Assembly: GCF_017901135.1 (NCBI RefSeq)
Contig: NZ_CP072801.1
Coordinates: 682,001 to 746,000, forward strand
Direction of reading: 5' to 3'
Length of the DNA: 64,000 nucleotides
From: Thiothrix litoralis
Lineage (GTDB): Bacteria > Pseudomonadota > Gammaproteobacteria > Thiotrichales > Thiotrichaceae
A program made the translations under genes and the position numbers. Positions 16,822-48,799 of the stretch are shown in pieces. The notes under the pieces were generated by a model. It saw only the letters and a list, made by a program, of their open reading frames with translations. It was not told the DNA's origin and did not search any database. Each line of letters starts with the position of its first letter. The first letter of the stretch is position 1.

Positions 16822-16849
16822 GTATGACCTGTCATACGCGGAGTATGTC
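16822..16849. promoter_or_regulatory. Candidate operator of the second toxin-antitoxin operon
   Basis: A perfect inverted repeat GTATGAC-CT-GTCATAC (16822-16837) is followed by a third half-site GTATGTC (16843-16849), ending four bases ahead of the antitoxin ATG. The same half-site is found at the other toxin-antitoxin operon, so autorepression by the antitoxin is a reasonable inference. Confidence 0.55.
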
Positions 16850-16852
16850 CCC

Positions 16853-30390: not shown

Positions 30391-30521
30391 GCCTACCCCA
30401 AAACAGCAGGGTTTATTGAAAGCAGACAAGGCTACTTCTACTATTTCAGGCAATTCCTAAGCGTTTTGGTAGGAAATAAGAAAACTGTTTCATGAAGTCA
30501 CTGTTAATTAGGAGTGTAGTC

Positions 30522-33500: not shown

Positions 33501-34337
33501 GACAAGCCCGGTGGCTATACCAGCAATGATATGTCTTTGCCCGGTATGGTTATCGAGGATATGCTGGTCGTGCCCGATATTCCCAACTGGGAGTTCGGGG
33601 TGCTGACCCAGGTGAGGGATATGACGCTGGTAATGCGTGACGATCTCAGCCGTTCGCAGTCCCAGTCTTCTGCCGACCCCGATCTGGTCACGGCGCAAAT
33701 TCGTTTCAATACTGATAGCCAGTTGTGGCTATTCCCACCTGCTGAAACACAGTACCGCGAGGGAGTGGAATCTCTCGAAAGTTACTTACAACGCTTGCAA
33801 AATGGTCAAGCCCAGTTCTATACCCGTGCTGACAATCTCAATAACTGGCTCAACAAGGTACAACGGCAAATGGGTTCATTATCCATTGCGCTGAGTGCCA
33901 GTGTCGGCGTCCGCCAAGTGAGTGAGAAAGGTGCCGCTACGAGTATTCAAGATGGCTCCACTCAGGCTCCGGGCGTTAAGGTTCAAGCGGAGGTTATAAA
34001 GGCAGACGACGACCCATCAGAAGTTATCATCAAAACCCCTCGGCTGAGAGTGGATGATGTGTTCTATCAGGCACGGGGTCAGGCTTGGGCGCTCCTGCAT
34101 ATGCTCAAAGCTATCGAAATCGATTTCGAGGATATATTGCGCCAGAAAAACGCCTTGGTCAGCCTGAGGCAAATTATCAATAAGCTGGAAGACACGCAGC
34201 AAGATGTCTGGAGTCCGATCATTCTCAACGGCAGCGGCTACAGTTTTGTCGCCAACCATTCTTTGGTGTTAGCGGCGCAAATTTCAAGTGCCAACGCTGC
34301 CTTGATCGATTTGGGTACCCTGATGCGCGAGGGATGA
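30522..34337 (+). CDS. Degenerate P-type ATPase fused to a DUF2333 domain
   Basis: A 1271-residue membrane protein. Residues 1 to about 915 have the full layout of a P2-type (calcium/cation) ATPase: N-terminal regulator-like segment, M1-M2, actuator domain, M3-M4 with PEGLP (295-299), P- and N-domains, and M5-M10. Hallmark motifs are altered: TGES reads LGYS (175-178); DKTGT reads DKSNT (Asp338 kept); TGDGVND reads VGGGLND (641-647, first Asp lost); and the M6 aspartate of NLVTDG is Ala741. From about 927 a further membrane helix leads into DUF2333, with EPDTFDV near 953 and the end NHSLVLAAQISSANAALIDL. The start at 30522 has AGGAG seven bases upstream; an ATG at 30492 lacks a ribosome site. 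Ion pumping is doubtful. Confidence 0.88.
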   Translation: MPHEEEHGRTINWHGVDTEEALRLSDSQPHGLSHEEATKRLKTHGYNRLDFASKNNLVARFLRQFNDRFIYILLVAAILTGVMQLWLDTVLILTVILISALSGLAQEGRARKALEAMHGLLSPTAQVVRDGKTETISAEQLTPGDVVLLQAGDQVPADLRLLSTAGLQVDEAVLLGYSAPILKNSASLDADMPLVDRSNMAYAGTVVLDGQARALVVATGAYTELGSINTFLEDNDSYITPLSKELKWLINGVAIVLLSAAALVFGFGLLTPGMEGHTLSGLLQSIASLAVAAVPEGLPALFALILGISMHRLAKRHVMVRKLAAVEALGSITTLFTDKSNTLTRHEPTVNKVLTARGGILLQGQGYTPKGELLRESFDDPAHDDRLDVQALAQAAVLASDARLLEQDGEWLARGDTLEAALLVMAHKCGIDPAQIREKFVRQASIPFNRTYRYMATLSNAADHRQYLSVKGAPESLLPRCSHVLTDQGLEPIEIVVWEDRVRKLAEQGMQILVIASKPVNQPMTSLEHEDVSYGLTLLGIVGISDPPREEAAEAVKLCQQAGIRVKMITGDHAQTACALAKRVGIGDGETVLTGTELDEMDEATLAEQLREVEVFARTSPDQKRRLVKTLQAQGERVAMVGGGLNDALALKQADVGVAMGIRGTEAARQSAEIVLIQDHFPSLVDAIREGRLLYQNFYKIVQFMLPSNGSQAVAVMVAVLFGLALPFTPAQVLWVNLVTAGILGLTLAFEKAEPDITLHSFELKPVQSLFSGFLLWRLLLVSAVLLVSVLSIFMWELHRGETLEAAHTAAINTLVIAQIFYLLSVRHSVAPSWRRANLFDNRWVWMAIGGVLLLQILFTYWTPFNSLFDTSAIDFYAWSWILLVGSLVFIIVEFEKAMQRNTKGWAQSVLKRGVDYFNPRVWKEKGLRWTLQFFAVLFLLGQLTLLFLWSREPDTFDVEATAREMVQAPAGETLRPGVVTTATLARISETLLDKPGGYTSNDMSLPGMVIEDMLVVPDIPNWEFGVLTQVRDMTLVMRDDLSRSQSQSSADPDLVTAQIRFNTDSQLWLFPPAETQYREGVESLESYLQRLQNGQAQFYTRADNLNNWLNKVQRQMGSLSIALSASVGVRQVSEKGAATSIQDGSTQAPGVKVQAEVIKADDDPSEVIIKTPRLRVDDVFYQARGQAWALLHMLKAIEIDFEDILRQKNALVSLRQIINKLEDTQQDVWSPIILNGSGYSFVANHSLVLAAQISSANAALIDLGTLMREG

Positions 34338-34348: not shown

Positions 34349-34375
34349 ACAGCCAGCAACTCATTTGCTGGCTGT
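34349..34375. terminator. Hairpin between the ATPase fusion and the CitE-like gene
   Basis: Perfect 11-base stem ACAGCCAGCAA / TTGCTGGCTGT with a five-base loop containing the CitE-like gene's stop codon. There is no long T-run on either side, so it may stabilise 3' ends or block converging polymerases rather than act as a classic terminator. Confidence 0.55.
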
Positions 34376-35335
34376 TCTGTGTAAATTGTCCTTATGTGCG
34401 TTATCCGCCTCTTCATCGACTGCCACTGCGTGTAAGTGGCAGCCAAAATGCTTGGCACGTTCGATGACTTGCACCGCCCAATGGTGATGGGTTGCGGGTT
34501 CGCACATTGCGCCTTCAAACTGGAAAACTGCTGGCATGGTGTCATCTAGAATCCGCAGGGCTGCTTCGTAATCATGGCTGTTTACTTTCAGCGCTTGATG
34601 GATGATCGCAATCTGGCTGGGGTGGATCACGGTTTTACCAACTAGCCCGTGCAGCAAATCCCGCTGAAATTCTGCCTGTAAGACGGTGTGATCCTGAAAA
34701 TATTCAAACACGGGCGCGGTGAGGTGAAAACCTGCCGGAACAAAGTGTGTCACCAACATCGCGACCACATACCCCAACGGGCCATCGTACAAGGTGTGAG
34801 CATGGTGAGTACGCAAGCGCAAACAAGACAGTAAGTCGTTGCCGCCAATGCGTAAAGCCAATATCCGCGCTTTAATACCCTCATCCTGCAAGCGTGCGCA
34901 CAATTCGCGTACTGCCAGTGCATCCAGCATTTGGGCAGTTTCCAGCGTTGGCATAAACAGCATGTGTGGCGGGGCGGCTTGTACCACTGCATACCAAGCG
35001 GCAAACGAGTGGTTATCAAACTTGGGTAACACGAAGCCGTCAATGGCTTCAATTCCGGTCATGGCTAACAATTCCAACGCCATCATGGGGTGGCGCGGGC
35101 GGATGAAAACCAATGGGCTTGCACCGCGATCTTGTTGGCGCAAGGTGTGCAAACACTGTTGCAGGTTTGCCAGCCCGGCAGCCACTTCGTCTTCGCGCAC
35201 CGCATCTTCCAGGCAAATCACCATCGAGCGTAGATCAGGGATTTTCTGGTGCAAAATAACGTCGAGCAAGTCCGGGCGAGTGGCAGGCATGTACAAGGTA
35301 GCGCCTAACTGATACGGGGAAATACGTGTGGTCAT
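34361..35335 (-). CDS. HpcH/HpaI aldolase / citrate lyase beta (CitE)-like protein
   Basis: TIM-barrel lyase family protein of 324 residues. A magnesium-site-like glutamate is in MPTLETAQML, the CitE-type acidic segment is VICLEDAV, and the C-terminal KTVIHPSQIAIIHQAL motif is typical. It is the last gene of the minus-strand Ter-linked operon, with its ATG overlapping the previous stop (ATGA). Such CitE-like proteins recur beside the phosphoribosyltransferase, HAD and ATP-grasp genes of Ter loci, where they are predicted to process a small metabolite. The substrate is unknown. Confidence 0.85.
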   Translation of the reverse strand: MTTRISPYQLGATLYMPATRPDLLDVILHQKIPDLRSMVICLEDAVREDEVAAGLANLQQCLHTLRQQDRGASPLVFIRPRHPMMALELLAMTGIEAIDGFVLPKFDNHSFAAWYAVVQAAPPHMLFMPTLETAQMLDALAVRELCARLQDEGIKARILALRIGGNDLLSCLRLRTHHAHTLYDGPLGYVVAMLVTHFVPAGFHLTAPVFEYFQDHTVLQAEFQRDLLHGLVGKTVIHPSQIAIIHQALKVNSHDYEAALRILDDTMPAVFQFEGAMCEPATHHHWAVQVIERAKHFGCHLHAVAVDEEADNAHKDNLHRTASK

Positions 35336-36411
35336 GAGGTCTTCTTGATGATGGTAATGGCACGGTAAGGCTCAAGTGCAGCCCCCATAGCTTGCAGAGG
35401 AATTCCCCGCGATTCGGCGAGGTGGCGTAACAGGCGGATATTCGGGTCATCCAGCCGCTGCACCAGAATGTGTTCCGGTACGCGGCGCATGACTGCACGG
35501 GTGGCTTCGGCAATCCCCGGCTTGAGGCGGTTAAGGTTGCTGATCTGATAGGTTTCCACAAGGCGTTGGATGGTGGCGTGTGAAAGTGCCTGCAAGTCTT
35601 GACGCTGCGCTGCGAGCCATTGCGTCGCTGCGGTCGCGGGCAAGTCACGTCGATAATTATCCACCACCTCAATAAAGTGGTTGCTGACATCGTGTTCTGC
35701 CAAGTGCTGGTAACTGACGCAAGCGTGCCAACCGCCATCACGGGTAAGGATGGAACGTGACACCAGCCCCGACACGGTTGCTCCCAAAATACCGAACGGA
35801 ATCAGCCAGTCTTCCCCGGATGCCGATAGCCACGCTTTGCCCGTCGGGTCAGCCAGCACCGCAAAGGGAATTTCCGTGCCGGGGTAACGCGCCCCGAGTG
35901 AGGCTTGTAATTGGGTATGGATCGCGCCTTTGCCAACCCAGCCATCCACCCACACAATGTCGGCGAAGGCGTGGCGTTGCTCAATCCAGTCCACTGCTGC
36001 CTGATCAATGCCCTTGTCGCGAATAATGCTGATGCCGTAATGGGTGCTTTCTACGCCTAAATCTCGTAGCGCCCGTACCAGCAAGACCCCTAGCGGTACG
36101 CCTGCCCGCACAAAACTGACCAGTACAATCGGGCGGTTCGGGCGGCGTTGCTGGAGTGCCAGTGCCAGAGCTTGTACTTCCGTTGCCAAGCGTGGCAAAC
36201 CGTCCGTCAGGGCTTGCGCGAATAACGCTTGGTGTTCTGGGGAAGGGGCTGATTCGGTGCTGATCATTTCCGAGTAATGGCGTTGCCCGCTTTGGATCAG
36301 GCGCTCTTTCTCCTCTACAGGCGTGGCTTCCATGTCGGTCAGACGTAGTAAAAACGTGACATCGCTGGCGGGATAGGAGCCGTGGAAACCTTGCAGGTCG
36401 GGTGTACTCAT
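35332..36411 (-). CDS. StiP/PELOTA-type phosphoribosyltransferase of the Ter operon
   Basis: Protein of 359 residues. The N-terminal two thirds resemble the family catalogued as 'cysteine protease StiP', which comparative genomics regards as a phosphoribosyltransferase: LVSFVRAGVPLGVLL and the PRPP-loop-like VWVDGWVGKGA are visible. The C-terminal part (from about 265: LNRLKPGIAEATRAVMRRVPEHILV) matches the PELOTA-like RNA-binding domain that accompanies it. It is coupled by ATGA overlaps to both neighbours. A role in making a nucleoside-like metabolite is inferred from the conserved association, not demonstrated. Confidence 0.85.
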   Translation of the reverse strand: MSTPDLQGFHGSYPASDVTFLLRLTDMEATPVEEKERLIQSGQRHYSEMISTESAPSPEHQALFAQALTDGLPRLATEVQALALALQQRRPNRPIVLVSFVRAGVPLGVLLVRALRDLGVESTHYGISIIRDKGIDQAAVDWIEQRHAFADIVWVDGWVGKGAIHTQLQASLGARYPGTEIPFAVLADPTGKAWLSASGEDWLIPFGILGATVSGLVSRSILTRDGGWHACVSYQHLAEHDVSNHFIEVVDNYRRDLPATAATQWLAAQRQDLQALSHATIQRLVETYQISNLNRLKPGIAEATRAVMRRVPEHILVQRLDDPNIRLLRHLAESRGIPLQAMGAALEPYRAITIIKKTS

Positions 36412-37142
36412 GGCAATTTCCCGCCCAGTTGGCTATTGGGGGGGAATGCTGCAAAATCACACAAGCGCATAAAGCCCAAATCCGACACGCTATCGCCCAT
36501 GCCAAACACCGGAGTGCGTCCGTGTTTGGCGGTATGCCGTCGCAGAATTTCTACTGCCGCTGCCCGTTTGTTTACAACGTCAGGCAGTAGTGCCAGATTA
36601 TTGCCATTCATGTGGATGTAAAAGCCTTGCAAGTCAATGGTTTCACGTAAGGTATGCAGTAACTGCTGGAGGTCTTCCGCCCGTGAGTCGTTGCTTTTGA
36701 TTACCAAGTACGCTGCGGTCTCTTCTACCGACTCCAGCCAGCCACGTAAAGATAACCCCATGTTTTCACCTGTTTGTAGCGCGGTTGCCAGCATCTCTGG
36801 CAGACGGCTTTGGTAAGGGGTAAGTTGTTGTTGCATCTGCGAATGCCAGTCGGCATCCAGCGTTCCTTCGGGGGTCAGGATCGCCGCACCGTGGACGCAA
36901 ACAGCTTCCTGTTGGAACGGTAAGTGTACTCGTTGGAGGGAATCAATCCCGCGTGCAGTCACGGGGATGACAGTCATGCAGCCCAGCGCCCAGTGGATGA
37001 AATCCTGTTGCCAGGGGTGCATAAAGCTGATGGTTTCGCCGTTTAAGCCTTGGGCAGCGGGGATTTTGTCTGCATCCTCCGGCATTTTTCGCGCCGTTTG
37101 GAACAGGGTGTCGTCAAGGTCGGTGAGTAGCAACGGTTTCAC
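36408..37142 (-). CDS. HAD-family phosphatase of the Ter operon
   Basis: Haloacid dehalogenase-like hydrolase of 244 residues. Motif I is LLTDLDDTLF (nucleophile Asp and the DxD pair), motif II lies around VIPVTARG, and motif IV is FGMGDSVSDLGFM. A Cof-type cap sits between motifs II and III. It probably removes phosphate from the pathway intermediate built by the flanking phosphoribosyltransferases. ATGA overlaps on both sides show tight translational coupling. Confidence 0.88.
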   Translation of the reverse strand: MKPLLLTDLDDTLFQTARKMPEDADKIPAAQGLNGETISFMHPWQQDFIHWALGCMTVIPVTARGIDSLQRVHLPFQQEAVCVHGAAILTPEGTLDADWHSQMQQQLTPYQSRLPEMLATALQTGENMGLSLRGWLESVEETAAYLVIKSNDSRAEDLQQLLHTLRETIDLQGFYIHMNGNNLALLPDVVNKRAAAVEILRRHTAKHGRTPVFGMGDSVSDLGFMRLCDFAAFPPNSQLGGKLP

Positions 37143-38245
37143 GGGTAAAACTCCAAACAGGTGGGATTCAAAGCACTGATCAACGCTTTATCCAACAAAT
37201 GTGCGGGCGGTTCGCTGCACAGCAGGATACGGTCGTAATCGCCGGGAGTGACGTTGTAGAGAAAGTTGGGGATGCCTTGCCCGTAATTGTCGTGGAAGCA
37301 ATAGCGCTGTTGGATGCTGTGTCCCAAGGCAATCGGCGAACGCGTGGTGGCGCTGAAATGCACGTTCGCACCGTGCTGTTCGAGGTATTCTGCGAGCAGA
37401 TAGGGCGGCCAGACAAATTCACCTGTGCCTAATATGAGGATGCGTTCACCCGGTGTGACAGTGAGTTGCTGAGCCAGTGGGGTTAATGGGTGTTGGCTTA
37501 CGCCTAAACGTCCCCAGTCATTGGCAGGGTTGGCGTGCCATTCCCCGGTTCCCAGTACATCGACTTGTGGCATGTCCGGTGGGGGCGCGTCGTTGGCTTG
37601 CCAGTCCCAATGCCCGGCGAGCAGCGAAACGGCGCGGGCGCGTTTGCCCAAACGTTCGGCGGCAGCACCACCTGACCAGTCGGTGAGGGTGGCAGCAATA
37701 ATGTGTTCAAACTGATCCAGCCCCGCTTGTTGCAAAGCTTCCAGCAGGTTGGAAAAAGTTTTGCCGGTGGAGGCCTCATCATCGACCAATACCAATGTCC
37801 GGGCGGTACGCAGCAGTTCAATATCAGCCGGGTGTTGCGGCCAATGCAACACTTGTTGGGTGGCGTGGCTGTGTTCTTCGCGGAATTCGACCAAGACTGG
37901 CACATCCAGCGGGTGACGAGTTGTGCACAGATACAGCGTGTCGTCACGGTTGCGGCTGAGCGCTTGTTGGACACCTGCGCCCAGCGCAATGGCGGTTTCT
38001 GCCATGCCAATCACGACCATTGGCCCCGGTAAATCGGCGGGGATTTGTGCGGCAAGTGTATCGGTGGCCTTGCGCATGACGGCAGGCGAGACGGGAATGT
38101 GCCTACCCAATACTTTGGATACAAACAGGAAGGCGCGTTTAGGGTTGCGACGTTGCGCAAAGCCGAAGAGTTCGTCGGGCGCGTGTGTGCCGGATTCGAT
38201 GGTGAGGTTGAGCGTACCCTGTTCAAGGTTAACGGTTAAGGTCAT
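37139..38245 (-). CDS. Phosphoribosyltransferase of the Ter operon
   Basis: Protein of 368 residues with a type I phosphoribosyltransferase core; the PRPP motif LVLVDDEASTGKT is at 151-163. A C-terminal domain of about 120 residues begins near LAQQLTVTPGERILILGTGEFVWPP and corresponds to the extra domain seen in Ter-associated PRTases. It would attach or remove a phosphoribosyl group in the predicted nucleoside-like metabolite pathway. It is coupled by ATGA overlap to the TerD-vWA gene upstream and the HAD gene downstream. Confidence 0.87.
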   Translation of the reverse strand: MTLTVNLEQGTLNLTIESGTHAPDELFGFAQRRNPKRAFLFVSKVLGRHIPVSPAVMRKATDTLAAQIPADLPGPMVVIGMAETAIALGAGVQQALSRNRDDTLYLCTTRHPLDVPVLVEFREEHSHATQQVLHWPQHPADIELLRTARTLVLVDDEASTGKTFSNLLEALQQAGLDQFEHIIAATLTDWSGGAAAERLGKRARAVSLLAGHWDWQANDAPPPDMPQVDVLGTGEWHANPANDWGRLGVSQHPLTPLAQQLTVTPGERILILGTGEFVWPPYLLAEYLEQHGANVHFSATTRSPIALGHSIQQRYCFHDNYGQGIPNFLYNVTPGDYDRILLCSEPPAHLLDKALISALNPTCLEFYP

Positions 38246-39582
38246 GCAGGGAGTATTCCTTGTTGTTTAGCGAGTGTTATCCAGCCGGGGTATTCGCTCA
38301 TCATGAGGTCGTACAGGGTTTCATCACTGTGTTCATTGGGTGATGCGACGGAGAAATAGTTGGCATTGTCCAGCAGTCGCCCCGATAGCTCGTCCAGCTT
38401 TTCCAGAAATGGAAAATCCGAATCAGCGAAAGCCAGCAGCAGCTTAGAGAGGGATTTTCGTCCTTTGCCTATGCCCATGAATTGCCAGAAAATAGGCTCA
38501 TAGCTTGACCAGCGTAGCTGTTTTTCGGTCAAGCCCTTGTCGGAAGTCCCGCCGTCGGTGACAAACATAACGTAGACTGGCATCGCTGCCTGTAATGGTG
38601 TCGTGCGTTCGCCACCGGCAGTATCGGGGAAGTAGTGTTGGCGGATTGCTTGCATGGCACGCCCGTAACGGGTATCACCTTCCAACGGGTGTTGTTGGAT
38701 GGTCTGAGCAATGTAGCTTGCGTAATTGCCAATGCCCATCGGGGCGGGTTGATGGACATCCTTGCCAAACAGGAATACGTCGATTTCGCCATCGTCGTCG
38801 AAGCGGCAACCCAGTGCCAAAATCCGTTCTGAAAATGCTTGAATCAAGCCATCCCGATACAAGCGACTCATGGAGCCAGAAATATCCAGACACAAGCACA
38901 CTTTGGCACGATGGCTTTCCAGCCCAACCTTTGCCAAGGAAATGGCTGATTTCTTGGCGAGGCTGAGTAATTGCGGTGCTTCTTTTTCCAGCCGCTTTTC
39001 CAAGGAAATGCGCGAGGGGTTGGCAACCGGCGGTGGGGGGGTGACCGGGGCAGAGGGTTCGGCGACACTGGCACCAAAATGTTTGACCAAGGCATCCAAC
39101 CCACCATTAAAGCCTTGTGCGGTGGCACTGAGTCGCCAAATGCCTGCTTTGCGGTACAGTTCCACCAGCATCACCGCACGTTCTTGCTGAAAGTCGCTGC
39201 CGGTAAAGCTGAATTGTGCCACGGTTTTGCCCTGCACCTGCACACTGAGTGCGCCACTGTGAAGAGCGCTCAGTGTCGCTTGACCATCAATCGTTACCGT
39301 CAGTACCAAGCGTTCAAGCGTGTTAGGCAGTGTCTTGAGGTTAAACCCGAAGGTTGCTGTATTGGCGGTGCTATTTTGCAGTGTTACGCTGCCGCACGGG
39401 GTACTGGGTTGATTGAAAAAGATCATGTAGCGATCATCAGAGAGTAATCCAGCGCTATCTAAACCAAAACAGGCAAAGTCTAAGGTTAGATTTGCACTAC
39501 TACAGGTACTTTGTAGTAAAAAAGGGCTGTTATTAGGGATGATCTCATCTAGTTTCAGGCGTTGCCCTTTTTTTATGTGCAT
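38242..39582 (-). CDS. TerD domain fused to a von Willebrand A domain
   Basis: Protein of 446 residues. The N-terminal TerD-like domain spans about residues 1-170 (ending AQGFNGGLDALVKHFG). A proline-rich linker follows (175-190), then a vWA domain with an intact MIDAS start DISGSMS (Asp233, Ser235, Ser237) and a later FVTDGGTSD loop. vWA-TerD proteins (TerF/TerY type) are thought to organise metal-dependent complexes at the membrane. It starts 15 bases after the TerD-protease gene and heads the ATGA-coupled run of metabolic genes. Confidence 0.9.
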   Translation of the reverse strand: MHIKKGQRLKLDEIIPNNSPFLLQSTCSSANLTLDFACFGLDSAGLLSDDRYMIFFNQPSTPCGSVTLQNSTANTATFGFNLKTLPNTLERLVLTVTIDGQATLSALHSGALSVQVQGKTVAQFSFTGSDFQQERAVMLVELYRKAGIWRLSATAQGFNGGLDALVKHFGASVAEPSAPVTPPPPVANPSRISLEKRLEKEAPQLLSLAKKSAISLAKVGLESHRAKVCLCLDISGSMSRLYRDGLIQAFSERILALGCRFDDDGEIDVFLFGKDVHQPAPMGIGNYASYIAQTIQQHPLEGDTRYGRAMQAIRQHYFPDTAGGERTTPLQAAMPVYVMFVTDGGTSDKGLTEKQLRWSSYEPIFWQFMGIGKGRKSLSKLLLAFADSDFPFLEKLDELSGRLLDNANYFSVASPNEHSDETLYDLMMSEYPGWITLAKQQGILPA

Positions 39583-39597
39583 ATATTACCTCTTTAT

Positions 39598-40731
39598 TTA
39601 ACCCGCGCATTCTACTCGCCAGATGGCATTTTGCGTTTGTTGCACCATTTGTGCGGCTGATAGTGTTTGGGTGTTGGTTTGTTGAAGGTATTGAATATTA
39701 GCGGCTTCCATCAAGGCAATTGCTAATACATGACGGATGGCAAAATTCATGTTCTGCGCATGGGTGAAGGTGGAAGATACGACCCCCAATACTGCGCCGG
39801 TTTCATCCAGTAACGGGCTACCGCTCGAACCGGGTTGGATGGGCGCGGTAAATTGCAATAAACGAATGTCGTTATGCGCTCCAAACAAGCCGGAAATGAC
39901 GCCTTGAGTGACTTGAATACCATTCCCCATCAAACCAGCCAGCGGATAACCTAACGTGGTAATCGCTTGCGCCAAACCAATATTACTGCTCCGAAACGGG
40001 AGGGGTTGCAGTTGAGCGGGCGTTGTGACCCGTAATAAGGCGAGGTCGTTGGTGCTGTCGCTGATAATGGGTTCAGCATCCAGCTTGCCTTGCAGGGAAT
40101 TCAAACGAATGTGGTTAGCACCATCTACCACGTGTGCATTGCTCATGAAAACATTGGGGGCAACCAGAAAAGCGGTGCCTGTCCAGTTACCGGGGCGTTG
40201 TTCGGTATTGCCGGGGGTTGCGAATGGTGAGCGCTCATCTATGTCCATACCCATTCTACGCCCAAGCGCTGCCAATCCATACGCGGAGGTTTCTGCTAGA
40301 GCGCGGACTTTCCATTGCCCTCCTCGCAAGTAGAATTCAGCAACCATCAGCGCTGAGGCCGGGATTTCCTGCAAAGCAATGTGATGGTTGAATACCTCAT
40401 CCATCTGTAGGGCAACGTGCTTGCCAACATCGATGGGGCCGCGTGCGCCGTAACGGTACAGCACTAAGTAGAGGTGGGTAATCGTGGCATCGGAAAGCTG
40501 GGCTACATCCAGCGTCAACGCGTAGCGGGTACCTGCTTCATTGAGGGTTGCGGTTGCCCATGTTGGAGCCTTGGCATGAGCCAAATAAGGTTGGCTAACT
40601 AATTGTTTCGCTTCATTGACGGGCAAAATAGCCAGCCCTAAATCGTGGTGAATGTCTTGTGGAAAAGTGATCGTCGTTGCCCAGCGTGTGCCAGTCAGCG
40701 GCAGGTTTGCGCCTACGGGTAAATTCATCAT
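39598..40731 (-). CDS. TerD-like domain fused to a trypsin-like serine protease
   Basis: Protein of 377 residues with an unusual combination. Residues 1 to about 165 form a TerD-like domain (VAEFYLRGGQWKVRALAE matches the final TerD strand pattern). The rest is a trypsin-fold protease with the triad His200 (SNAHVV), Asp229 (STNDLALL) and Ser303 (QPGSSGSPLLD). There is no signal peptide, so it should act in the cytoplasm, perhaps on a Ter-system component. It is the first gene of the minus-strand arm. The control region upstream has been hit by an IS4-type element. ATG at 40731 or 40728. Confidence 0.85.
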   Translation of the reverse strand: MMNLPVGANLPLTGTRWATTITFPQDIHHDLGLAILPVNEAKQLVSQPYLAHAKAPTWATATLNEAGTRYALTLDVAQLSDATITHLYLVLYRYGARGPIDVGKHVALQMDEVFNHHIALQEIPASALMVAEFYLRGGQWKVRALAETSAYGLAALGRRMGMDIDERSPFATPGNTEQRPGNWTGTAFLVAPNVFMSNAHVVDGANHIRLNSLQGKLDAEPIISDSTNDLALLRVTTPAQLQPLPFRSSNIGLAQAITTLGYPLAGLMGNGIQVTQGVISGLFGAHNDIRLLQFTAPIQPGSSGSPLLDETGAVLGVVSSTFTHAQNMNFAIRHVLAIALMEAANIQYLQQTNTQTLSAAQMVQQTQNAIWRVECAG

Positions 40732-40843
40732 AATTATTGTTACCGAGCTGTATTGTTATGGTCAGCATGATAGCAAGAATGGTGTTAAAAATGCCTGAAA
40801 TTTTTACCGTAGATCGGGCATACTAGCGCTTGTCATCATTATT

Positions 40844-40852
40844 AAAATTTTT
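40844..40852. repeat. Target-site duplication AAAATTTTT (left copy)
   Basis: Nine-base direct repeat flanking the IS4-type element; matching copy at 42108-42116. Because the repeat is itself almost palindromic, the exact edge could shift by a few bases. Confidence 0.65.
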
Positions 40853-42107
40853 CTCTGTACACGACAATTTTCCTAATCCTCGATTTTCAAGATCAAAATT
40901 ACCCTTCCATCTTGGGTAGTGATCAAGTCAGGAGGCCATAAAAACAGCACCCATAACCTGATGGCATCCTCTGTCCGGCGAAAGCCATGCAACAAACTGT
41001 TGGTCAAAACATCCAACCCATAGCGGAACAAACTCTGTTCAGGCCGCCCGTGTTTTTTGATGGTCAGTGGCCTGATGAAGCGGTGTTTCCATTCGCCCAC
41101 CTTGTGCGCCCAGCAGAATCCAATGGCGAGCAAGGCCATGACTTTCTTGATACGGCGATAGTGGGTCAAGCGCGTATCTTCCCAATGGAAGCCGCGCCCT
41201 TTCAGGCATTGGAACAGGTTTTCGATCTCCCAACGCAAGCGGTAAGTGCCGAAAGGGTCACGAAACGGTTGGTTCGCCGCCAACACCAGCAGTTCCCCGC
41301 TGTCTAACTTCATGCCGCTGAGCCAAACCCACTGCCCGCTGACGCGGAAGGTTTTTCTCAGGAAACGGTGCTGCCCTTGCTTCAAGTCCTTGAAACGTGA
41401 GTGCATATTTTGCTGATGCCCTTGGCGGTTGGTCATCAACTGGTTTTCCTTGATCCGCATCAAGAAAGGTATCTGATGCCGGGTCAGCCATTTCCACCAG
41501 TGTTCACCGATGAACTCCCTATCGCCCAGGATACCGAGGATGTTATCCCGCCCAAACTGGCTGATGAAGCGGTTCAACAAGGCGATGCGTTCACGCTGGT
41601 TAGAGTTGCCCTTCTTGTTCAGCACCAGCCAATACACCGGGATCGCTGTCCCTTTATACACAACACCCAAACGTCAGAATGTTGAGGTTGGCTTTGCCCC
41701 ACTGCCAGTTCGTCCGGTCGAGGGTGAGGTGGTATTTTTTTCCCGGAAAGCCGAAGAATCCCATCTGTAACCGCGCAATGGCATCATAATCAAACCAGAC
41801 GAGGGCAAAAAACCGTTGCAGGCGACGGTAGCGGGAGCGGGGGTCTGCATCGCTGGCAAACGCCAACGCGAGTTGCGTCAGGTTGATCTGCTTGAGCCGG
41901 AATAAACCCAGCAACATGCCAACAAAACAATCAAGCCGGGGCTTGCCCCAACCCAGATGGGCTTTTAAACTGTCCCTCAGTCCGTCGCTCAGATCCATTC
42001 CGCTCTCCTGTGTAGACTTGAGAGTGGAACATAGGGGTGATGGACTTTCATTAATGAACTGACAGCCTAGCTAAATCAAGGGGTTAGTGGTTTTGTCGTG
42101 TACAGAG
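40853..42107 (-). mobile_element. IS4-family insertion sequence in the Ter divergent control region
   Basis: A 1255-bp element with 15-bp perfect terminal repeats CTCTGTACACGACAA (40853-40867 and 42093-42107) and a 9-bp target duplication. It carries one transposase gene with a single-base frameshift. It lies between the two arms of the Ter locus, 24 bases ahead of the ATP-grasp start codon. Confidence 0.85.
40873..41998 (-). pseudogene. IS4-family transposase, one frameshift
   Basis: DDE transposase starting MDLSDGLRDSLKAHLGWG at 41998. The first catalytic aspartate is in LTLDRTNWQWG, and the later LGDREFIG and YRLRWEIENLFQCLKGRG (YREK-type region) hold the remaining acidic residues. The frame breaks near 41670: the first part runs ILTFGCCV and stops, while the continuation GVVYKGTAIPVYWLVL is one base out of frame. 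One extra T on the coding strand explains it. The result is two fragments of 114 and 265 residues. The base context is not a known -1 slippery heptamer, so decay is the simplest reading. Confidence 0.82.
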
Positions 42108-42116
42108 AAAATTTTT
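42108..42116. repeat. Target-site duplication AAAATTTTT (right copy)
   Basis: Pairs with 40844-40852. It ends 14 bases before the ATP-grasp start codon. Confidence 0.65.
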
Positions 42117-42130
42117 AGACAGGGCATACC

Positions 42131-43156
42131 ATGCGTATTTGGTTTAACAAGACATTTTCCAGCATCAGTTCCGTGTTTCACAACCTGCGCCAAGCGCGTA
42201 TCGCAGGTGGAGTGACTGTTATTTATACCCATACTAACCCGGCTGCTTCGGCATTTCTGGCAGCGGATGAAGCAATGGTTGAGCCCGCTGGTTTGGTAGG
42301 GGCAGCGTATCTGGATTGGTGTTTGGGCTTTTGCCAGCAACACCGGATTGATTACTTCTGGCCTGCCAAAGAGTCTGTGTTGATTGTGCAGCATCAAGCT
42401 GATTTTGCGCGGGTGGGGACGCAGCTCATTGCGGTTGCGACGCCGGAAACGCTGGCGCTGTTAAACCACAAAGGCGACTTTTACCGCACGTTGCCGCCTG
42501 AGGTGGCTCAGGCAATGGCTTGTATTGCGGTCACTGATACAGCAGGCTTTGATCGGGCGGTGGCAGAACTGTCGCAACATTATGCGGCACTGTGTGTTAA
42601 ACCAGCGGTCTCGGTATTTGGCTTAGGGTTCCGCATTCTGGATACGCAACGCGACAGTATTACGCACTTGCTAAAAGGCGTGGAATACGAAATTCCACTG
42701 ACCGAATTGCGGGCAGGTATGGAACACACGTCAACGTTTCCTGAGCTACTGGTGATGGAGCATTTGTCTGGCGCAGAATGGAGCGTGGATTGTGCTGGGC
42801 GTAACGGTGAGCTGTTATGCGGCATCCAGCGTAAAAAACATCCGTTGGCAGGCTACGGGCAGGAAATCGATAATAATGCAGATATTCAGGGCATGGTGGA
42901 GCGTTTAACCGCACATTATGGTTTGAATGGTTTGTTCAATATCCAGTTCAAAGCGCGGGCAGATGGTGAGCCGAGTTTGCTGGAAATCAATCCGCGTCCC
43001 GCTGGTGGCTTCGGGATGGCGTGTTTGGCAGGGGTGAATCTGGCGGAGGTTTTCCTGCAAAGTCTGGTGGGTGAGACGGTAGTAATACCCCCTATTCGCT
43101 ATGGCTTGCGGGTTGGTGAAGTCAGTACACCAGTCGTTTTGCCATCATTGGTCTGA
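42131..43156 (+). CDS. ATP-grasp ligase of the Ter locus
   Basis: ATP-grasp fold enzyme of 341 residues. An N-terminal pre-ATP-grasp domain precedes the ATP-binding lysine region CVKPAVSVFGLGFRI, the adenine-pocket strand LLVMEHLSGAEWSVDC and the metal-binding LLEINPRPAGGFGM. Enzymes of this fold join a carboxylate to an amine or thiol using ATP. ATP-grasp proteins recur in Ter loci with PRTases, HAD and CitE-like proteins, so it probably acts in the same pathway as the minus-strand genes. An IS ends only 24 bases upstream, so its original promoter has been displaced. Confidence 0.88.
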   Translation: MRIWFNKTFSSISSVFHNLRQARIAGGVTVIYTHTNPAASAFLAADEAMVEPAGLVGAAYLDWCLGFCQQHRIDYFWPAKESVLIVQHQADFARVGTQLIAVATPETLALLNHKGDFYRTLPPEVAQAMACIAVTDTAGFDRAVAELSQHYAALCVKPAVSVFGLGFRILDTQRDSITHLLKGVEYEIPLTELRAGMEHTSTFPELLVMEHLSGAEWSVDCAGRNGELLCGIQRKKHPLAGYGQEIDNNADIQGMVERLTAHYGLNGLFNIQFKARADGEPSLLEINPRPAGGFGMACLAGVNLAEVFLQSLVGETVVIPPIRYGLRVGEVSTPVVLPSLV

Positions 43157-43246
43157 AATAACCTGACAATTCTAGGTGAGTGTTGCTTGCATTTAGGCGA
43201 CTCTCTAAGATGTTGGTAGTCAATAATACAAATAGGATACATATTC

Positions 43247-43849
43247 ATGGCTGTTAGTTTAAGCAAAGGGCAACGCATTTCTTTGGAAAAAAGCAATGGC
43301 GCTGGCTTGAGTAAAGTTCGCATGGGTTTGGGCTGGGATCCGGTACAAGCACCTAAGAAAAGTGGTTTCTTCGGTAGCATGTTTGGCGGCGGTGGTGGTG
43401 CTGAAGACATTGACCTTGATGCTTCTTGCTTGCTGCTGGATGCACAAAAAAACCTGCTGGATGTGGTGTGGTTCCGCCAATTGCAAAGCCGCGATGGTTC
43501 GATCAAGCATTCTGGCGACAACCTGACGGGCGAAGGTTCTGGCGATGATGAAGTCATTTTCGTTGATCTGAGCAGCTTGCCGGGCAATGTTGCACATTTG
43601 GCCTTTACGGTGTGTTCTTTCCGTGGGCAAACCTTTAATGAAGTTGAAGGCGCGTTTTGCCGCTTGGTCGACGACACCAATAATAGCGAAATGGCGAAAT
43701 TCAACCTGTCCGAAAAAGGTGTCCACACGGGTGTAGTCATGGCGATTATCAGCCGTGACGGCGCAGGTTGGCAGATGAAAGCAGTCGGTACACCCACGGC
43801 TGGTGCTGTTGCGAACGATATGATGCCAGCGATTTTGGCGGCTATCTAG
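43247..43849 (+). CDS. terZ: TerZ-like TerD-family protein
   Basis: Cytoplasmic TerD-family protein of 200 residues, close in plan to plasmid-borne TerZ. Features are MAVSLSKGQRISLEK, GLGWDPV, a glycine-rich insert GSMFGGGGGAE, the DIDLDASCLL calcium-site strand and HSGDNLTGEGSGDDE. Family members bind calcium through such aspartates. It starts the run of ter genes behind the ATP-grasp gene. Confidence 0.92.
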   Translation: MAVSLSKGQRISLEKSNGAGLSKVRMGLGWDPVQAPKKSGFFGSMFGGGGGAEDIDLDASCLLLDAQKNLLDVVWFRQLQSRDGSIKHSGDNLTGEGSGDDEVIFVDLSSLPGNVAHLAFTVCSFRGQTFNEVEGAFCRLVDDTNNSEMAKFNLSEKGVHTGVVMAIISRDGAGWQMKAVGTPTAGAVANDMMPAILAAI

Positions 43850-43859
43850 GAGTACTGCA

Positions 43860-45074
43860 ATGTCAGTGACACAATTGGTTGCTGGGGCAAATTGCCCAGT
43901 ACCGTCTGAAAAACTTCAGGTTGAGGTCACGTTGTCGCCTGCACAAATCAGCGGGGCGGAGGTGGATATTTCCGCCTTTGCCTTGACTGGCAGTGGCAAA
44001 GTGCGTGGCGATGATGACATGGTATTCTATGGTCAGCCGCGTCCCGGTAATGGCAGCGTGGCGTTTCTGGCGAATAGTGCCGGGCGTGCTGAGTTCAGCG
44101 TCGACATCCCGAAACTGCTGGCCAGCACCGAAAAAATTGCATTTACTGCGACAATTCACGAAAACCGCAAGACTTTTGGCGCGTTCACCAGCCTGCAAGT
44201 CACGGTGAAAAATGCAGCGGGGCAAGCGGTACTCGTTGCCACCTTACCTGCTACTGGCATGGTGGAGTCGGCGCTGATTTTGGGTGAATTGTATTTACGC
44301 CAAGGGCAGTGGAAATTCCGTGCCGTAGGGCAAGGCTTCGCTGGTGGCTTAAAGCCATTGGCCGAGCATTTTGGGGTGGATATTAGTGATGCGCCAGCTC
44401 CGGCAGCCGCGCCGCCGCCACCCGCACCCAGCCCTGCGAAGAAGCCCATTTCCCTGAGCAAAGTCACGTTGGATAAGGGAAAGCCGCGCGTTAGTCTGGA
44501 AAAGAAATCCGAAGGCTTCGGCGAAATCCGCATCAACCTGAACTGGAATCGTGAGACAGCCCCCGCCGCCAAAAGTGGTGGTTTGTTGGGTGGCTTGTTC
44601 GGTGGTGGCAACAAAGGCATGGATCTGGATGTTGGCTGTTTGTACGAACAGCGCGACGGTACAATCAGCGCGATTCAAGCCTTGGGCAACCGTTTTGGCT
44701 CATTCCGCAGCGACCCGTTTATCGAGCTGAAAGGCGATGACCGCACCGGCGCGATCAGTGAGGGCGAATGGCTGCATATCAATGGGCAGCAATGGCAAAC
44801 CTTCAAGCGTGTGCTGGTGTATGCCTTTATCTACGAAGGTGCGCCAAACTGGGCGCAAACCGATGGTGTCGTGACCATTTACGTGCCGAACGAACCCCCG
44901 TTGGAAATTCGCATGACCGAAGGCGGCAATTCGCTCGGCATGTGCGCCGTGGTCTTGCTGGAAAACATCAATGGTACGTTACAGGTGAACCGCGAAGTAC
45001 GTTACTTCAAGGGGCATCAGGAAATGGATCAAGCCTATCGCTGGGGATTAAACTGGCGATCAGGTTCAAAATAA
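43860..45074 (+). CDS. terA: TerA-like protein (two TerD-type domains)
   Basis: Protein of 404 residues. The N-terminal TerD-like domain covers about 1-170, followed by a proline/alanine linker (about 178-200) and a second TerD-like domain with SLEKKSEGFGEIRINLNW, a glycine-rich insert and MDLDVGCLYEQRDG. The C-terminal segment LEIRMTEGGNSLGMCAVVLLENINGTLQVNREVRYFKGH is characteristic of TerA. It lies 10 bases after terZ. Confidence 0.9.
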   Translation: MSVTQLVAGANCPVPSEKLQVEVTLSPAQISGAEVDISAFALTGSGKVRGDDDMVFYGQPRPGNGSVAFLANSAGRAEFSVDIPKLLASTEKIAFTATIHENRKTFGAFTSLQVTVKNAAGQAVLVATLPATGMVESALILGELYLRQGQWKFRAVGQGFAGGLKPLAEHFGVDISDAPAPAAAPPPPAPSPAKKPISLSKVTLDKGKPRVSLEKKSEGFGEIRINLNWNRETAPAAKSGGLLGGLFGGGNKGMDLDVGCLYEQRDGTISAIQALGNRFGSFRSDPFIELKGDDRTGAISEGEWLHINGQQWQTFKRVLVYAFIYEGAPNWAQTDGVVTIYVPNEPPLEIRMTEGGNSLGMCAVVLLENINGTLQVNREVRYFKGHQEMDQAYRWGLNWRSGSK

Positions 45075-45099
45075 GTGATGAAATCAAAGGAGAAGAGAC

Positions 45100-45678
45100 G
45101 TGGCTTTAAGTTTACAAAAAGGTGGTAACCTTTCATTAAGCAAAACTGACCCCAGTTTAACTAAAATCCTGATTGGTTTAGGCTGGGATGAACGCAGCAC
45201 AGATGGGGCAGGTTTTGACCTTGATGCCAGTGCCTTTCTGCTGACTGCCAGCGGTAAAGTGCGTGGTGATGCAGATTTTATTTTCTACAACCAATTGAAA
45301 TCGACCGATGGTTCCGTGGAACACACGGGCGATAATCGCACCGGGCAAGGCGATGGCGACGATGAGTCGATGAAAGTGGACTTGAGCAAAGTACCTGCCG
45401 AGATTACGAAAGTTGCCTTCACGGTGACGATTCATGATGCAGAAGCGCGTCGCCAAAACTTTGGGCAAGTCGCCAATGCGTTCATTCGTGTGGTGAATGA
45501 TGCGACGGGCACTGAAGTCGTGCGTTACGATTTGGCAGAAGATTATTCTACCGAAACCGCGATGGTATTCGGTGAATTATACCGCAATAACGAGGAATGG
45601 AAATTCCGTGCCGTGGGGCAAGGTTATGCGGGTGGTTTAAAAGCAATGTGTGACCAGTTTGGTATTCAAATTGGTTAA
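45100..45678 (+). CDS. terD: TerD-family protein, first of two paralogues
   Basis: Calcium-binding stress protein of 192 residues with the signatures [38 protein letters not shown] and [18 protein letters not shown]. The start is a GTG at 45100 with AAGGAG seven bases upstream. It is a tandem paralogue of the next gene, same length and highly similar. The TerD/TerE pair sits between terA and terC, as in classical ter operons. Confidence 0.93.
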
Positions 45679-45715
45679 TGTGATGATTCAATGACGAAAA
45701 GAATGGAGTTTTATA

Positions 45716-46294
45716 ATGGCTGTTAGTTTACAAAAAGGCGGCAACGTCTCTTTATCGAAAGAAGCACCTGGTTTGACTGATGTTACCGTTGGCTTGGGTT
45801 GGGATACCCGTGCTACTGATGGTACTGATTTTGACTTGGATGCATCCGTTTTCATGCTGGGCGAAGATGGCAAAGTGTTGTCAGATGATTCTTTCATCTT
45901 TTACAACAACAAGAAATCCGCTTGCGGGAATGTTGAGCACATGGGCGACAACAAGACCGGTGCTGGCGATGGCGATGACGAGCAAGTCAAAGTAAATCTG
46001 GCTGGCTTGGCGGAAACCGCGAAGAAACTGGTGTTTTCGGTCACTATCCATGACGCAGAAGCGCGTAAGCAAAACTTTGGTCAAGTCAGCAACGCTTACA
46101 TCCGTTTGGTGAATAGCGCTGATGGCAAAGAAATTGCCCGTTACGACCTGTCTGAAGATGCCAGTGTTGAAACAGCGATGTTGTTTGGTGAGATTTATCG
46201 CCATAACACTGAGTGGAAGTTCAAGGCGGTTGGTCAAGGCTTTGCCGGTGGTTTAGGGCCGATGGCTGCATCCATGGGCGTCAATCTTGGTTAA
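45716..46294 (+). CDS. terE: TerD/TerE-family protein, second paralogue
   Basis: Protein of 192 residues, a tandem paralogue of the preceding gene: [55 protein letters not shown]. Assignment as TerE rather than a second TerD rests on order only. It starts 38 bases after its neighbour. Confidence 0.9.
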
Positions 46295-46382
46295 AGCATT
46301 GTAAACAATGCGCTTGGTTTACCACAGGCATCTTATTCAGGATGCCTGTTTTGTTTGTTCATCAGGTAAAGTTAGAAGTTCT

Positions 46383-47423
46383 ATGTTCCAAGATTTTAAA
46401 TATTCGTTTTTAGTGACTTTCCTCTGTGTGGGGGTGGCTATTTGGTGGGGGGCAACCACCTCGATGGGCATCGCCACTGCCATTTTTTTGGTGTTGGTAT
46501 TGGGTATCATGGAAGTCAGCTTGTCGTTTGACAATGCGGTCGTGAATGCCTCTGTCCTCAAAGAAATGGATGAGTACTGGCAGAAGATGTTTCTGACGGT
46601 CGGTATTCTGATTGCCGTTTTTGGGATGCGTTTAGTGTTCCCGATTGTGATCGTTGCTATTGCGACCGGGCTGGGTACAGTCGATGTCATGCAGATGGCC
46701 TTGAATAATCCTCAAGAATACTCACGGCATTTGATGGAAAGCCACGCGGGGATTGCGGCGTTCGGCGGCATGTTCCTGTTATTGGTCTTCCTGAGCTTCA
46801 TGTTTGACAATGAAAAAGAAGTGCATTGGCTTGAGGTGATTGAGCATAAAATGAGTGAGTTGGGTAAGTTGGATGTGATCAGTATTTTGATTGCGCTGGC
46901 GACCTTGTTTGCTTTGCAAGCCTTGTTGCCGATAGATGATGCTAAGCGCTTGACTATATTGATTGCGGGTCTGGGTGGGATTGTCCTGTATATTGCGGTC
47001 AGCAGTCTGGATGTCTTCTTTGAAGATAAGGCAGAAGGCGACGCCGCCGTAAAAGTAGTGACTCGTAATGGTCTGGCCGGTTTCTTGTATCTGGAAGTGT
47101 TGGACGCATCCTTCTCGTTCGATGGTGTGATTGGCGCCTTTGCCATTACCAAAGACGTGGTTATCATTATGTTGGGTCTGGCGATTGGTGCGATGTTTGT
47201 GCGTTCCCTGACCGTACATTTAGTGCATAAAGGCACGTTGGATGAATACATTTATCTGGAACATGGCGCACATTATGGTATCGGTGCGTTGGCTGTCATT
47301 ATGCTATTCAGTATTCATTACCACATACCTGAAGTGATTACCGGATTAATTGGTGTAACGTTTATTGTGTTGTCGATTGTGTCATCACTGCGTTACAAAA
47401 AGAAACAGTTGGCTGAAGCCTAA
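46383..47423 (+). CDS. terC: TerC-type membrane protein (DUF475 branch)
   Basis: Polytopic membrane protein of 346 residues with about nine hydrophobic segments. TerC-family repeats with membrane aspartates are seen in EVSLSFDNAVVNASVL and EVLDASFSFDGVIGAF, which are thought to bind a metal ion. The length and sequence place it in the DUF475 branch rather than classical TerC. The ATG at 46383 is preferred over an upstream in-frame start at 46308, because the extra N-terminus is not hydrophobic or conserved-looking. Members have been linked to manganese export. Confidence 0.9.
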   Translation: MFQDFKYSFLVTFLCVGVAIWWGATTSMGIATAIFLVLVLGIMEVSLSFDNAVVNASVLKEMDEYWQKMFLTVGILIAVFGMRLVFPIVIVAIATGLGTVDVMQMALNNPQEYSRHLMESHAGIAAFGGMFLLLVFLSFMFDNEKEVHWLEVIEHKMSELGKLDVISILIALATLFALQALLPIDDAKRLTILIAGLGGIVLYIAVSSLDVFFEDKAEGDAAVKVVTRNGLAGFLYLEVLDASFSFDGVIGAFAITKDVVIIMLGLAIGAMFVRSLTVHLVHKGTLDEYIYLEHGAHYGIGALAVIMLFSIHYHIPEVITGLIGVTFIVLSIVSSLRYKKKQLAEA

Positions 47424-47443
47424 GTGAAATAAGGAGATTATAC

Positions 47444-47899
47444 ATGTCATTTTTTGATACATTGAAAGAGAAAGCCGGGGAAGCCCGCGCTAAATTGACA
47501 ACAGAAATCGGTAAATTCAAGAACCGTGAGTTTATGGAAGCCTGTGTGGCCGGTTGTGCTTTAGTTGCCGCTGCTGATGGCAGTATTGATTCGTCTGAAA
47601 AGCAAAAGATGATGAAATTCATCCAGCAATCGGATGAGCTGAAAGTCTTTGACACCAAGGATGTCATCACCTTTTTCAGCAAAATTGCCGACAACTTTGA
47701 GTTTGATAATGAAATCGGTAAGGCCGAAGCCCTGAAAGTGATCGGTAAGCTGCGTAGCAAACCGGACGCCGCTCGCCTGATGGTGCGTGTCTGCTGCGCT
47801 ATTGGCAGTGCTGACGGTGACTTTGATGATAAAGAAAAGCAAATGGTGCGCGAAATGTGCCGTGACTTGAACATCCCGGCAGACGATTTCGGCTTGTAA
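47444..47899 (+). CDS. terB: TerB
   Basis: Helical cytoplasmic protein of 151 residues with the TerB pattern of acidic metal-binding motifs: AAADGSIDSSEKQKM near the N-terminal half and GSADGDFDDKEKQMV in the second half. TerB is thought to link TerC at the membrane with TerD-type proteins. It is the last gene of the plus-strand arm and ends exactly where the converging NhaR-like gene ends. Confidence 0.93.
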   Translation: MSFFDTLKEKAGEARAKLTTEIGKFKNREFMEACVAGCALVAAADGSIDSSEKQKMMKFIQQSDELKVFDTKDVITFFSKIADNFEFDNEIGKAEALKVIGKLRSKPDAARLMVRVCCAIGSADGDFDDKEKQMVREMCRDLNIPADDFGL

Positions 47900-48799
47900 T
47901 TAGAGCTTCGTCTGTAGCCAATCCTGCGCGTGTTTGGTGATTGCCAGCACCGCAGGGTGGCTTATGCGCCGTTCCACTGAAATGGCAAAAAACTGTTCCA
48001 CCACATCGCTTGCTTGCCCAATGCAATGCATATTGGGTTCTTGGGTGAAGGTTGCCTCCTGCACGGAAGGCGCAACAAATATCCCCGAGCCTGCCAGCCC
48101 GAATGCCCGCATCAGGGCGCTATCATCAAACTCACCAATGATTTTTGGTCTCAGCTTTTGCTGATGAAACCACTGTTCCAATTCATTACGTACTGAAGTC
48201 CCTTCGCTGGGGATTAGCAGCGGCGCGTCATTCAGGCAGAGTGGAAATTCACCTTGTAGCTGCTCCTTGACCGAGGTGTGCGCAAAAAAGCTGATGCAAC
48301 TAGAACCCAGCCGATGGGAAAAGCCTTTGATGGGCATATTATTGGGCAAAGGGCGGTCGGCAATCACCAATTCAATACGGTGCATGGCGAGTTCCCCTAG
48401 CAGGTCTGATAAAGGCCCTTCGGTACACACAATATGGATTTGTGGCGTCAGTTCCATCGCCGGTTCGAGAAGTTTGTAAGCAATGGTTTTGGGCACAACA
48501 TCCACGACTCCAACCCGAAACAGTCGTGCCTGCTGCGAAGGGTGGCTGCGCAAGGCTTGTTCCATGCTACTACCCAATTGGAAAATCTCATCTGCATAAC
48601 GGCGGGCAACTTGTCCGGCTTCGGTCAGTTCCAGATTCCTGCCTTGTTTGCGCAATAATTTTACACCCAGTGATTCTTCCAGCAGTTGCAATTGTCCGCT
48701 GATGGTTTGCGGGGTCAGGTTGAGGCTATCACAGGCACGGGCAATGCTCCCCAGGGTGGCTACTTCGCGGAAATAGTACAAGTGTTTGTAATTCAACAT
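47900..48799 (-). CDS. nhaR: NhaR-like LysR-family regulator
   Basis: LysR-type regulator of 299 residues; MLNYKHLYYFREVATLGSIARACDSLNLTPQTISGQL is a typical NhaR N-terminus (residues 1-60), with an effector domain following. NhaR in E. coli activates the sodium/proton antiporter nhaA and pga genes. No antiporter is nearby here. It starts three bases after the stop of the RelE-helicase-ankyrin gene on the same strand, so it is probably cotranscribed with it. Confidence 0.85.
   Translation of the reverse strand: MLNYKHLYYFREVATLGSIARACDSLNLTPQTISGQLQLLEESLGVKLLRKQGRNLELTEAGQVARRYADEIFQLGSSMEQALRSHPSQQARLFRVGVVDVVPKTIAYKLLEPAMELTPQIHIVCTEGPLSDLLGELAMHRIELVIADRPLPNNMPIKGFSHRLGSSCISFFAHTSVKEQLQGEFPLCLNDAPLLIPSEGTSVRNELEQWFHQQKLRPKIIGEFDDSALMRAFGLAGSGIFVAPSVQEATFTQEPNMHCIGQASDVVEQFFAISVERRISHPAVLAITKHAQDWLQTKL

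Follow-up and report, generated by a model that had tools for sequence, protein, structure and literature searches.

A gene set in which Ter proteins are combined with a metabolite pathway was predicted by Anantharaman, Iyer and Aravind in 2012, and passages of PMC7824862 and PMC8115787 repeat the prediction. Passages of the latter also describe a plasmid-borne Klebsiella pneumoniae locus, in which a biosynthetic cluster of 14 genes with terXYW and an operon terZABCDEF lie on opposite strands. Here we analyze a locus of this kind at positions 34361–47899 of a 64,000-nucleotide stretch (the window) of Thiothrix litoralis, whose 4.28-Mb genome is a single contig. As far as those passages describe the 2012 gene set, the window shares with it TerD paralogues, TerC, TerB, a protein with a TerF-type vWA domain, a phosphoribosyltransferase (PRTase), and a HAD phosphatase. 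In addition, the StiP, CitE-like, and ATP-grasp proteins of the window match PF11202, PF15617, and PF15632, the last of which is named for the Ter operon. Membership in the predicted set, which an earlier note on this DNA had proposed, is borne out by the joint presence of TerD paralogues, TerC, TerB, and five enzyme genes. The window departs from the predicted system in having a TerD-protease gene at the head of its enzyme operon and in the interruption of its divergent gap by an insertion sequence; otherwise nothing in it is new in kind.

Like the Klebsiella locus, the window has its biosynthetic cluster and ter operon on opposite strands, but it is chromosomal and includes a TerD-protease (terXYW were not sought by name here). 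The Pseudomonas aeruginosa plasmid p60503-DIM also carries such a cluster, in the order ATP-grasp, TerD-protease, PRTase, HAD, StiP, CitE, TerZ, TerA, TerB, TerC, TerD, and TerE. Its proteins are 29–79% identical to those of the window, but all its genes lie on one strand, a second HAD is present, and its TerC/Alx-type gene does not match the DUF475-type TerC found here.

We read the locus as a chromosomal two-operon Ter locus of a known kind, in which an enzyme pathway using phosphoribosyl pyrophosphate (PRPP) probably makes a small molecule that TerD-family proteins would bind; gene content and predicted folds both point this way. All 13 open reading frames (ORFs) are intact, six on the minus strand and seven on the plus strand, and they have the positions and identities assigned by the earlier note. 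The named domains exceed the Pfam cut-offs in all but two cases, i.e. the HAD and the TerD part of the TerD-protease (20.9 bits against a cut-off of 25.3). The first reading of this DNA holds in general, except on three points: the insertion sequence, which strand carries ATP-grasp, and a proposed protein complex.

The core of the enzyme set is conserved well beyond the genus. The closest named relatives of StiP (78–81% identity) are from Thiothrix fructosivorans, T. caldifontis, "Ca. T. singaporensis", and T. lacustris. We compared 35 loci picked by StiP, with up to 10 kb on each side and several ending at contig edges, which according to record titles span Gamma-, Alpha-, Delta-, and other Proteobacteria, Verrucomicrobiota, and Synergistaceae. 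Every one of the 35 has PRTase and HAD along with StiP; CitE is called in 33 (34 if a CitE within the StiP frame of "Ca. T. singaporensis" is counted), ATP-grasp is found in 27, and one or more Ter genes in 33. The co-occurrence of PRTase, HAD, and StiP, together in 35 of 35 loci from several phyla, is beyond chance. In the class (232 genomes), the cut-off is exceeded by StiP and by PRTase_2 in the same 7 genomes, a count uncorrected for relatedness, and below the cut-off weak matches to StiP and PRTase_2 appear in 4 and 36 more genomes, respectively. Within the genus, StiP and TerD are common to the same 10 of 16 genomes. The shared frame of StiP and CitE in "Ca. T. singaporensis" is not accepted as a gene fusion; it is probably an assembly fault, because the stretch contains 7 N and looks like a frame slip where the two genes meet.

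The enzyme genes are also closely spaced. In the window, the four junctions from the vWA gene to the CitE-like gene are all 4-nt overlaps, as the earlier note had it, although three rather than four are ATGA; the PRTase/HAD overlap is GTGA because the HAD gene starts with GTG. Across the StiP loci, junctions of 30 nt or less are found for PRTase-HAD (32 of 35), HAD-StiP (34 of 35), and StiP-CitE (32 of 33), counting the start nearest the upstream stop, a choice that favors overlap. Close coupling of the enzymes is therefore well supported. It does not extend to all five enzymes as had been claimed, since ATP-grasp is encoded on the other strand, beyond the insertion sequence, and what is coupled are four enzymes and the vWA protein. 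Nor does the suggestion of a stoichiometric complex with the vWA protein hold: the overlaps suggest coupled translation only, and of the 10 genus genomes with the locus 6 have no vWA-TerF gene, which is present in 4 of all 16. Homologous loci do lack single parts (vWA, CitE, ATP-grasp, and, in one contig, HAD), but those compared keep the PRTase-StiP pair. The gene set is real but modular.

Two of the enzymes have PRTase folds in their predicted models. The PRTase_2-TRSP protein (37139–38245, minus strand; PF15609, PF12500) keeps the canonical DDE motif for PRPP (D155 D156 E157) in 23 of 23 sequences, and its PRTase part is APRT-like (model pLDDT 91.6; Z 13.5, 171 aligned residues, root-mean-square deviation [rmsd] 2.9 against APRT 6fci). 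StiP (35332–36411, minus strand; PF11202, with a C-terminal PELOTA/L7Ae-like domain, PF15608) had been called a PRTase in the earlier note, and the best folds for its model (pLDDT 90.9) are indeed PRTases. Specifically, the model resembles HPRT and PyrR in Foldseek (best E 1.4e-4, HPRT ranked first), and compared with HPRT 3o7m it gives a VIA Z of 10.6 over 149 aligned residues (rmsd 3.3). The StiP tail is L7Ae/Snu13-like by fold and profile comparison, and a single-sequence search of the Protein Data Bank (PDB) finds four rows of L7Ae/Snu13 type and, weakly, one deaminase. The PRPP loop is a variant one, VDGWVGKG in the window and D-G-W-(V/T)-G-K-G in most of 25 sequences, with D156, W158, K161, and G162 invariant in all 25. 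A vicinal acid pair is absent from every one of these, the residue after D156 being G in 24 and T in 1. StiP looks like an HPRT-like PRTase with an altered PRPP motif.

By its Pfam name and plasmid annotations ("cysteine protease StiP family"), StiP would instead be a cysteine protease that, together with the TerD-protease, serves a proteolytic stress response. A trypsin-like gene with a conserved triad does lie in the same operon, and C231 is kept in 22 of 25 StiP sequences. This is however the best column, and because no Cys is invariant among the 25 sequences the name is unsupported; with PRTases as the best fold matches of the model, we regard a protease function as extremely improbable. 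No cysteine protease is among the 50 Foldseek matches listed, which alone proves nothing, and rows for PLP (pyridoxal phosphate) enzymes stand at ranks 25, 40, 41, and 44.

The highest VIA rows for StiP belong to Bcs3, the Hib (Haemophilus influenzae type b) capsule polymerase (8a0c/8a0m, residues 637–934; Z 11.4/10.7, rmsd 3.8–3.9, 195 aligned), a region covering the catalytic domain of CriT. According to passages of PMC10299916, CriT transfers ribose-5-phosphate from PRPP to a hydroxyl, and the HAD enzyme CrpP then takes the phosphate off. CriT and CrpP of Bcs3 resemble StiP and its HAD neighbor in pairing a PRTase-fold enzyme with a HAD partner, in lacking the vicinal acid pair, and in giving a comparable fold score, but they differ in serving polymer synthesis and in their added helical bundles, and StiP has no sequence match to them. 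StiP could on these grounds be a PRPP-dependent ribosyl-5-phosphate transferase acting on a hydroxyl, with the HAD in the role of CrpP, so that the product would be a ribosyl glycoside and not a plain nucleoside. Such pairs of a ribofuranose-adding PRTase-fold enzyme and a phosphatase are published, in passages of PMC10299916 for Haemophilus influenzae type b and of PMC11231755 for Klebsiella O4/O7 antigens, where the enzymes combine ribosyl-5-phosphate transfer and phosphatase, and the HAD of the window is related to sugar phosphatases.

Several observations make O-ribosylation unlikely nonetheless. The CriT region and HPRT are tied as fold matches, because VIA Z differences below 1 were counted as ties, and it is HPRT that leads in Foldseek. 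A StiP profile search of the PDB found L7Ae-type chains only, with no PRTase or Bcs3 chain. By eye, one of the two CriT acids from loops 1 and 3 is recognizable in StiP, and the loop-1 acid D680 has no counterpart among the invariant loop-1 residues of StiP. We therefore treat the likeness of the StiP model to CriT as a lead rather than as membership. A further variant, in which PRTase_2 makes a nucleotide from PRPP by the ordinary reaction, StiP adds ribose-5-phosphate to a hydroxyl, the HAD dephosphorylates it, and TerD proteins bind the doubly ribosylated glycoside, appears decidedly unlikely.

The HAD phosphatase (36408–37142, minus strand, GTG start) has no Pfam match at 1e-3, with Hydrolase_3, HAD, and GGDEF_2 weak and under their cut-offs, and was identified through PDB 6cj0 (E 7.6e-64; 44% identity over 226 aa). 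In a single-sequence PDB search (E up to 0.1) its only relatives are 6cj0 and 6d3v, both named "Trehalose phosphatase". A profile places 6cj0 first (4.6e-102), followed by mannosyl-3-phosphoglycerate phosphatases (6.4e-5 and 2.1e-4), and in weaker rows by uncharacterized HADs, sucrose phosphatase (0.038), and a trehalose-phosphate phosphatase (0.16). Among 23 family members, 7 match Pfam Hydrolase_3 and 3 match the sucrose-phosphatase family S6PP, while D8, D10, T62, K192, D217, and D221 are invariant in all 23. Plasmid p2017-45-137A has a HAD that matches the 6cj0 stretch at 99.6% identity, and the HAD of p60503-DIM matches it at 93%; both of these HADs sit in Ter clusters. Passages of PMC6838324 describe an extrachromosomal P. 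aeruginosa enzyme that was assayed among trehalose-6-phosphate (T6P) phosphatases, naming its Cys85 and Cys231. The only two Cys of the 6cj0 stretch, at chain positions 87 and 233, have the same spacing, so we take 6cj0 to be this enzyme or a near copy. A homologue of the HAD is present on 2,557 of 72,556 plasmid records.

The homology to 6cj0/6d3v, the assayed P. aeruginosa enzyme, and plasmid records that call the homologue trehalose phosphatase would all fit a true T6P phosphatase, in an operon serving trehalose or compatible-solute stress metabolism. However, the HAD has PRTases for neighbors, and neither OtsA (PF00982) nor the OtsB family (PF02358) is matched in any of the 16 genus genomes, that of the window included, while each is matched in 6 of 14 controls, including E. 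coli (other trehalose-phosphate routes were not searched). T6P is therefore an unlikely natural substrate here, and we consider a trehalose function of the operon very unlikely. Gene context suggests that the natural substrate is probably a glycosyl-phosphate of the pathway, made by the neighboring PRTases.

Taken together, the minus-strand enzymes are an APRT-like PRTase_2-TRSP, a HAD with sugar phosphatases among its relatives, StiP as a PRTase of altered motif, and a CitE-like C-C bond lyase (34361–35335; PF15617, 338 bits, with an ATGA overlap with StiP). In the PDB the lyase is weakly related to acyl-CoA/citrate lyase beta chains. The ATP-grasp ligase (42131–43156, PF15632 ATPgrasp_Ter), for which a PDB sequence search gives no match, is on the plus strand. 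In the pathway that we propose, the core step would be the transfer of a phosphoribosyl group from PRPP to an acceptor, after which the HAD would strip the 5-phosphate from the phosphoribosylated acceptor. The CitE-like lyase may supply or trim a carbon piece, the ATP-grasp enzyme would join an acid or amine, and the resulting small molecule would be bound by TerD-family proteins together with TerC in the membrane, the TerD proteins possibly being its receptors in a stress response.

Some evidence weighs against this pathway. In passages of PMC8115787, Klebsiella terZ-F supplied in trans is enough to make cells resistant to tellurite, those of E. coli MG1655 included, so the enzymes are dispensable for that phenotype. 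The TRSP half of the PRTase is scarcely covered by the fold comparison, and a PDB sequence search with PRTase_TRSP gives no match. Among 50,697 phage records, 3 contain StiP; two of these are one and the same genome, Acinetobacter phage ME3, and the third is an unverified faecal contig. ME3, whose Ter system was reported earlier (in a passage of PMC7824862), has PRTase-HAD-StiP with TerC and TerD, and its stretch contains no CitE. In the faecal contig the HAD was not detected beside the PRTase-StiP pair, and ATP-grasp is in neither phage locus. An assignment to phage defense was considered and rejected: PADLOC matched 3 of 10 proteins, i.e. the protease domain (RT-Protease, 1.4e-17), the HAD (9e-4), and TerB (0.0098), which we read as generic, and the other phage evidence is literature on other species.

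What the locus adds is chemistry, as a motif-altered PRTase and a phosphatase that is probably misnamed make the question of the Ter product more testable. No compound is named as the product of the gene set in the open-licence papers searched, which is no proof that none has been printed. The database names (trehalose phosphatase and cysteine protease) may have obscured the link. With a HAD family that has crystal structures and assayed sugar-phosphate activity, and with StiP as a candidate motif-altered PRTase, a vague prediction becomes one that can be assayed, and phosphoribosylated sugars and nucleosides join bases among the candidate acceptors.

The earlier note had called the locus complete and bidirectional. 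The gene list supports this, but the shared gap is interrupted by an insertion sequence of 1,255 bp (40853–42107). Its ends are inverted repeats (CTCTGTACACGACAA), and it is flanked by a 9-bp target duplication (AAAATTTTT), with one copy (40844–40852) ending the left part of the gap (40732–40852) and the other (42108–42116) in a 23-bp right remnant (42108–42130). The DDE_Tnp_1 transposase is read on the minus strand in two overlapping frames (40873–41670 and 41654–41998). Two sister copies elsewhere in the genome, one differing by a one-base gap and the other by that gap plus four mismatches, are one base different at the frame break; read by eye, their transposase frame is intact, and the window copy may hold a sequencing slip. 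In 8 of 9 other genus loci the gap is conserved at 132–135 bp (135 bp in T. lacustris). In the ninth, from another species (genome G008), the protease and ATP-grasp genes are 2,051 bp apart and enclose another insert, of about 1.9 kb, that has no match over 300 bp with the insertion sequence of the window.

The insertion lies 23 bp upstream of the ATP-grasp start, so plus-strand expression may change in this strain. The conserved gap blocks, including GCATGATAGCAAGA and GGGCATACT, are left of the insertion, and the position of these blocks suggests that the minus-strand promoter is retained while the plus-strand promoter may be separated from its genes, i.e. ATP-grasp and, downstream, terZ (43247–43849), terA (43860–45074), terD (45100–45678, GTG start), and terE (45716–46294), all four with TerD domains, terC (46308–47423; DUF475 PF04332/TerC PF03741), and terB (47444–47899; PF05099). 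The locus could then be a decaying copy, silent or half-silent here because the insertion cut the plus-strand genes off their promoter. Against such decay, none of the 13 ORFs is broken, conservation extends to the 23-bp right remnant, and a consensus scan gives 2 promoter-like sites where 2.6 are expected by chance. Insertion-sequence ends can also carry outward promoters, and on balance we doubt that the copy is decaying.

Compared with T. lacustris in sliding windows, most of the locus is 90–100% identical, with one window in terB at 84.7%. The block 35441–37140, spanning HAD and StiP, falls to 58–80% identity in 200-bp windows, while neighboring windows are at about 90–100%. From this pattern the block is an apparent allele replacement inside the enzyme operon, and no donor was found among nine relatives. 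In T. fructosivorans, about 1.6 kb separates terE and terC, compared with about 0.1 kb or less in other loci.

The remaining minus-strand genes are an accessory one encoding TerD and TerF-type vWA domains (38242–39582; PF02342, PF10138) and the TerD-protease, first in the operon (39598–40731), with a divergent TerD domain and a trypsin/HtrA-like domain (PF13365). H200, D229, and S303 of the latter are invariant in 12 of 12 sequences and, judging by motif, we take them to be the His-Asp-Ser triad. The TerD domain is about at the cut-off in two genus relatives, and the gene is also found in 13 of the 35 StiP loci and on a P. aeruginosa plasmid. This architecture is not new, because a passage of PMC2605481 lists a P. 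syringae TerD-trypsin protein as uncharacterized in 2008. On plasmid p2017-45-137A, the TerD-protease and terA genes are each split by an IS1182-type element (6097–8788 and 14102–16856 of locus L086).

Downstream of terB, and abutting it, is a LysR regulator (47900–48799) that is adjacent in 9 of 9 relatives, followed by an SF1 helicase with ankyrin repeats (48803–51688), a conserved neighbor in 7 of 9. Neither is accepted as a Ter part: LysR is present in 16 and the helicase in 15 of the 16 genus genomes, including genomes without Ter. On the other side, convergent with the Ter operon, 30492–34337 encodes a Ca-type P-type ATPase fused to DUF2333. Canonical P-type ATPase motifs are TGES, DKTGT, and GDGxND; here they look altered to LGYS, DKSNT, and GGGLND, and the protein is possibly a pseudo-ATPase. 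Among the nine other genus loci this ATPase adjoins Ter only in T. lacustris, which shares the GGG and whose contig does not reach far enough to cover the other two motifs. A Ca-ATPase-like fragment at a contig end adjoins Ter genes in the phage-labelled faecal contig (L084, 14927–15367), and a Ca-ATPase-like gene with normal motifs does so in a Synergistaceae metagenome-assembled genome (L032, 12760–15624).

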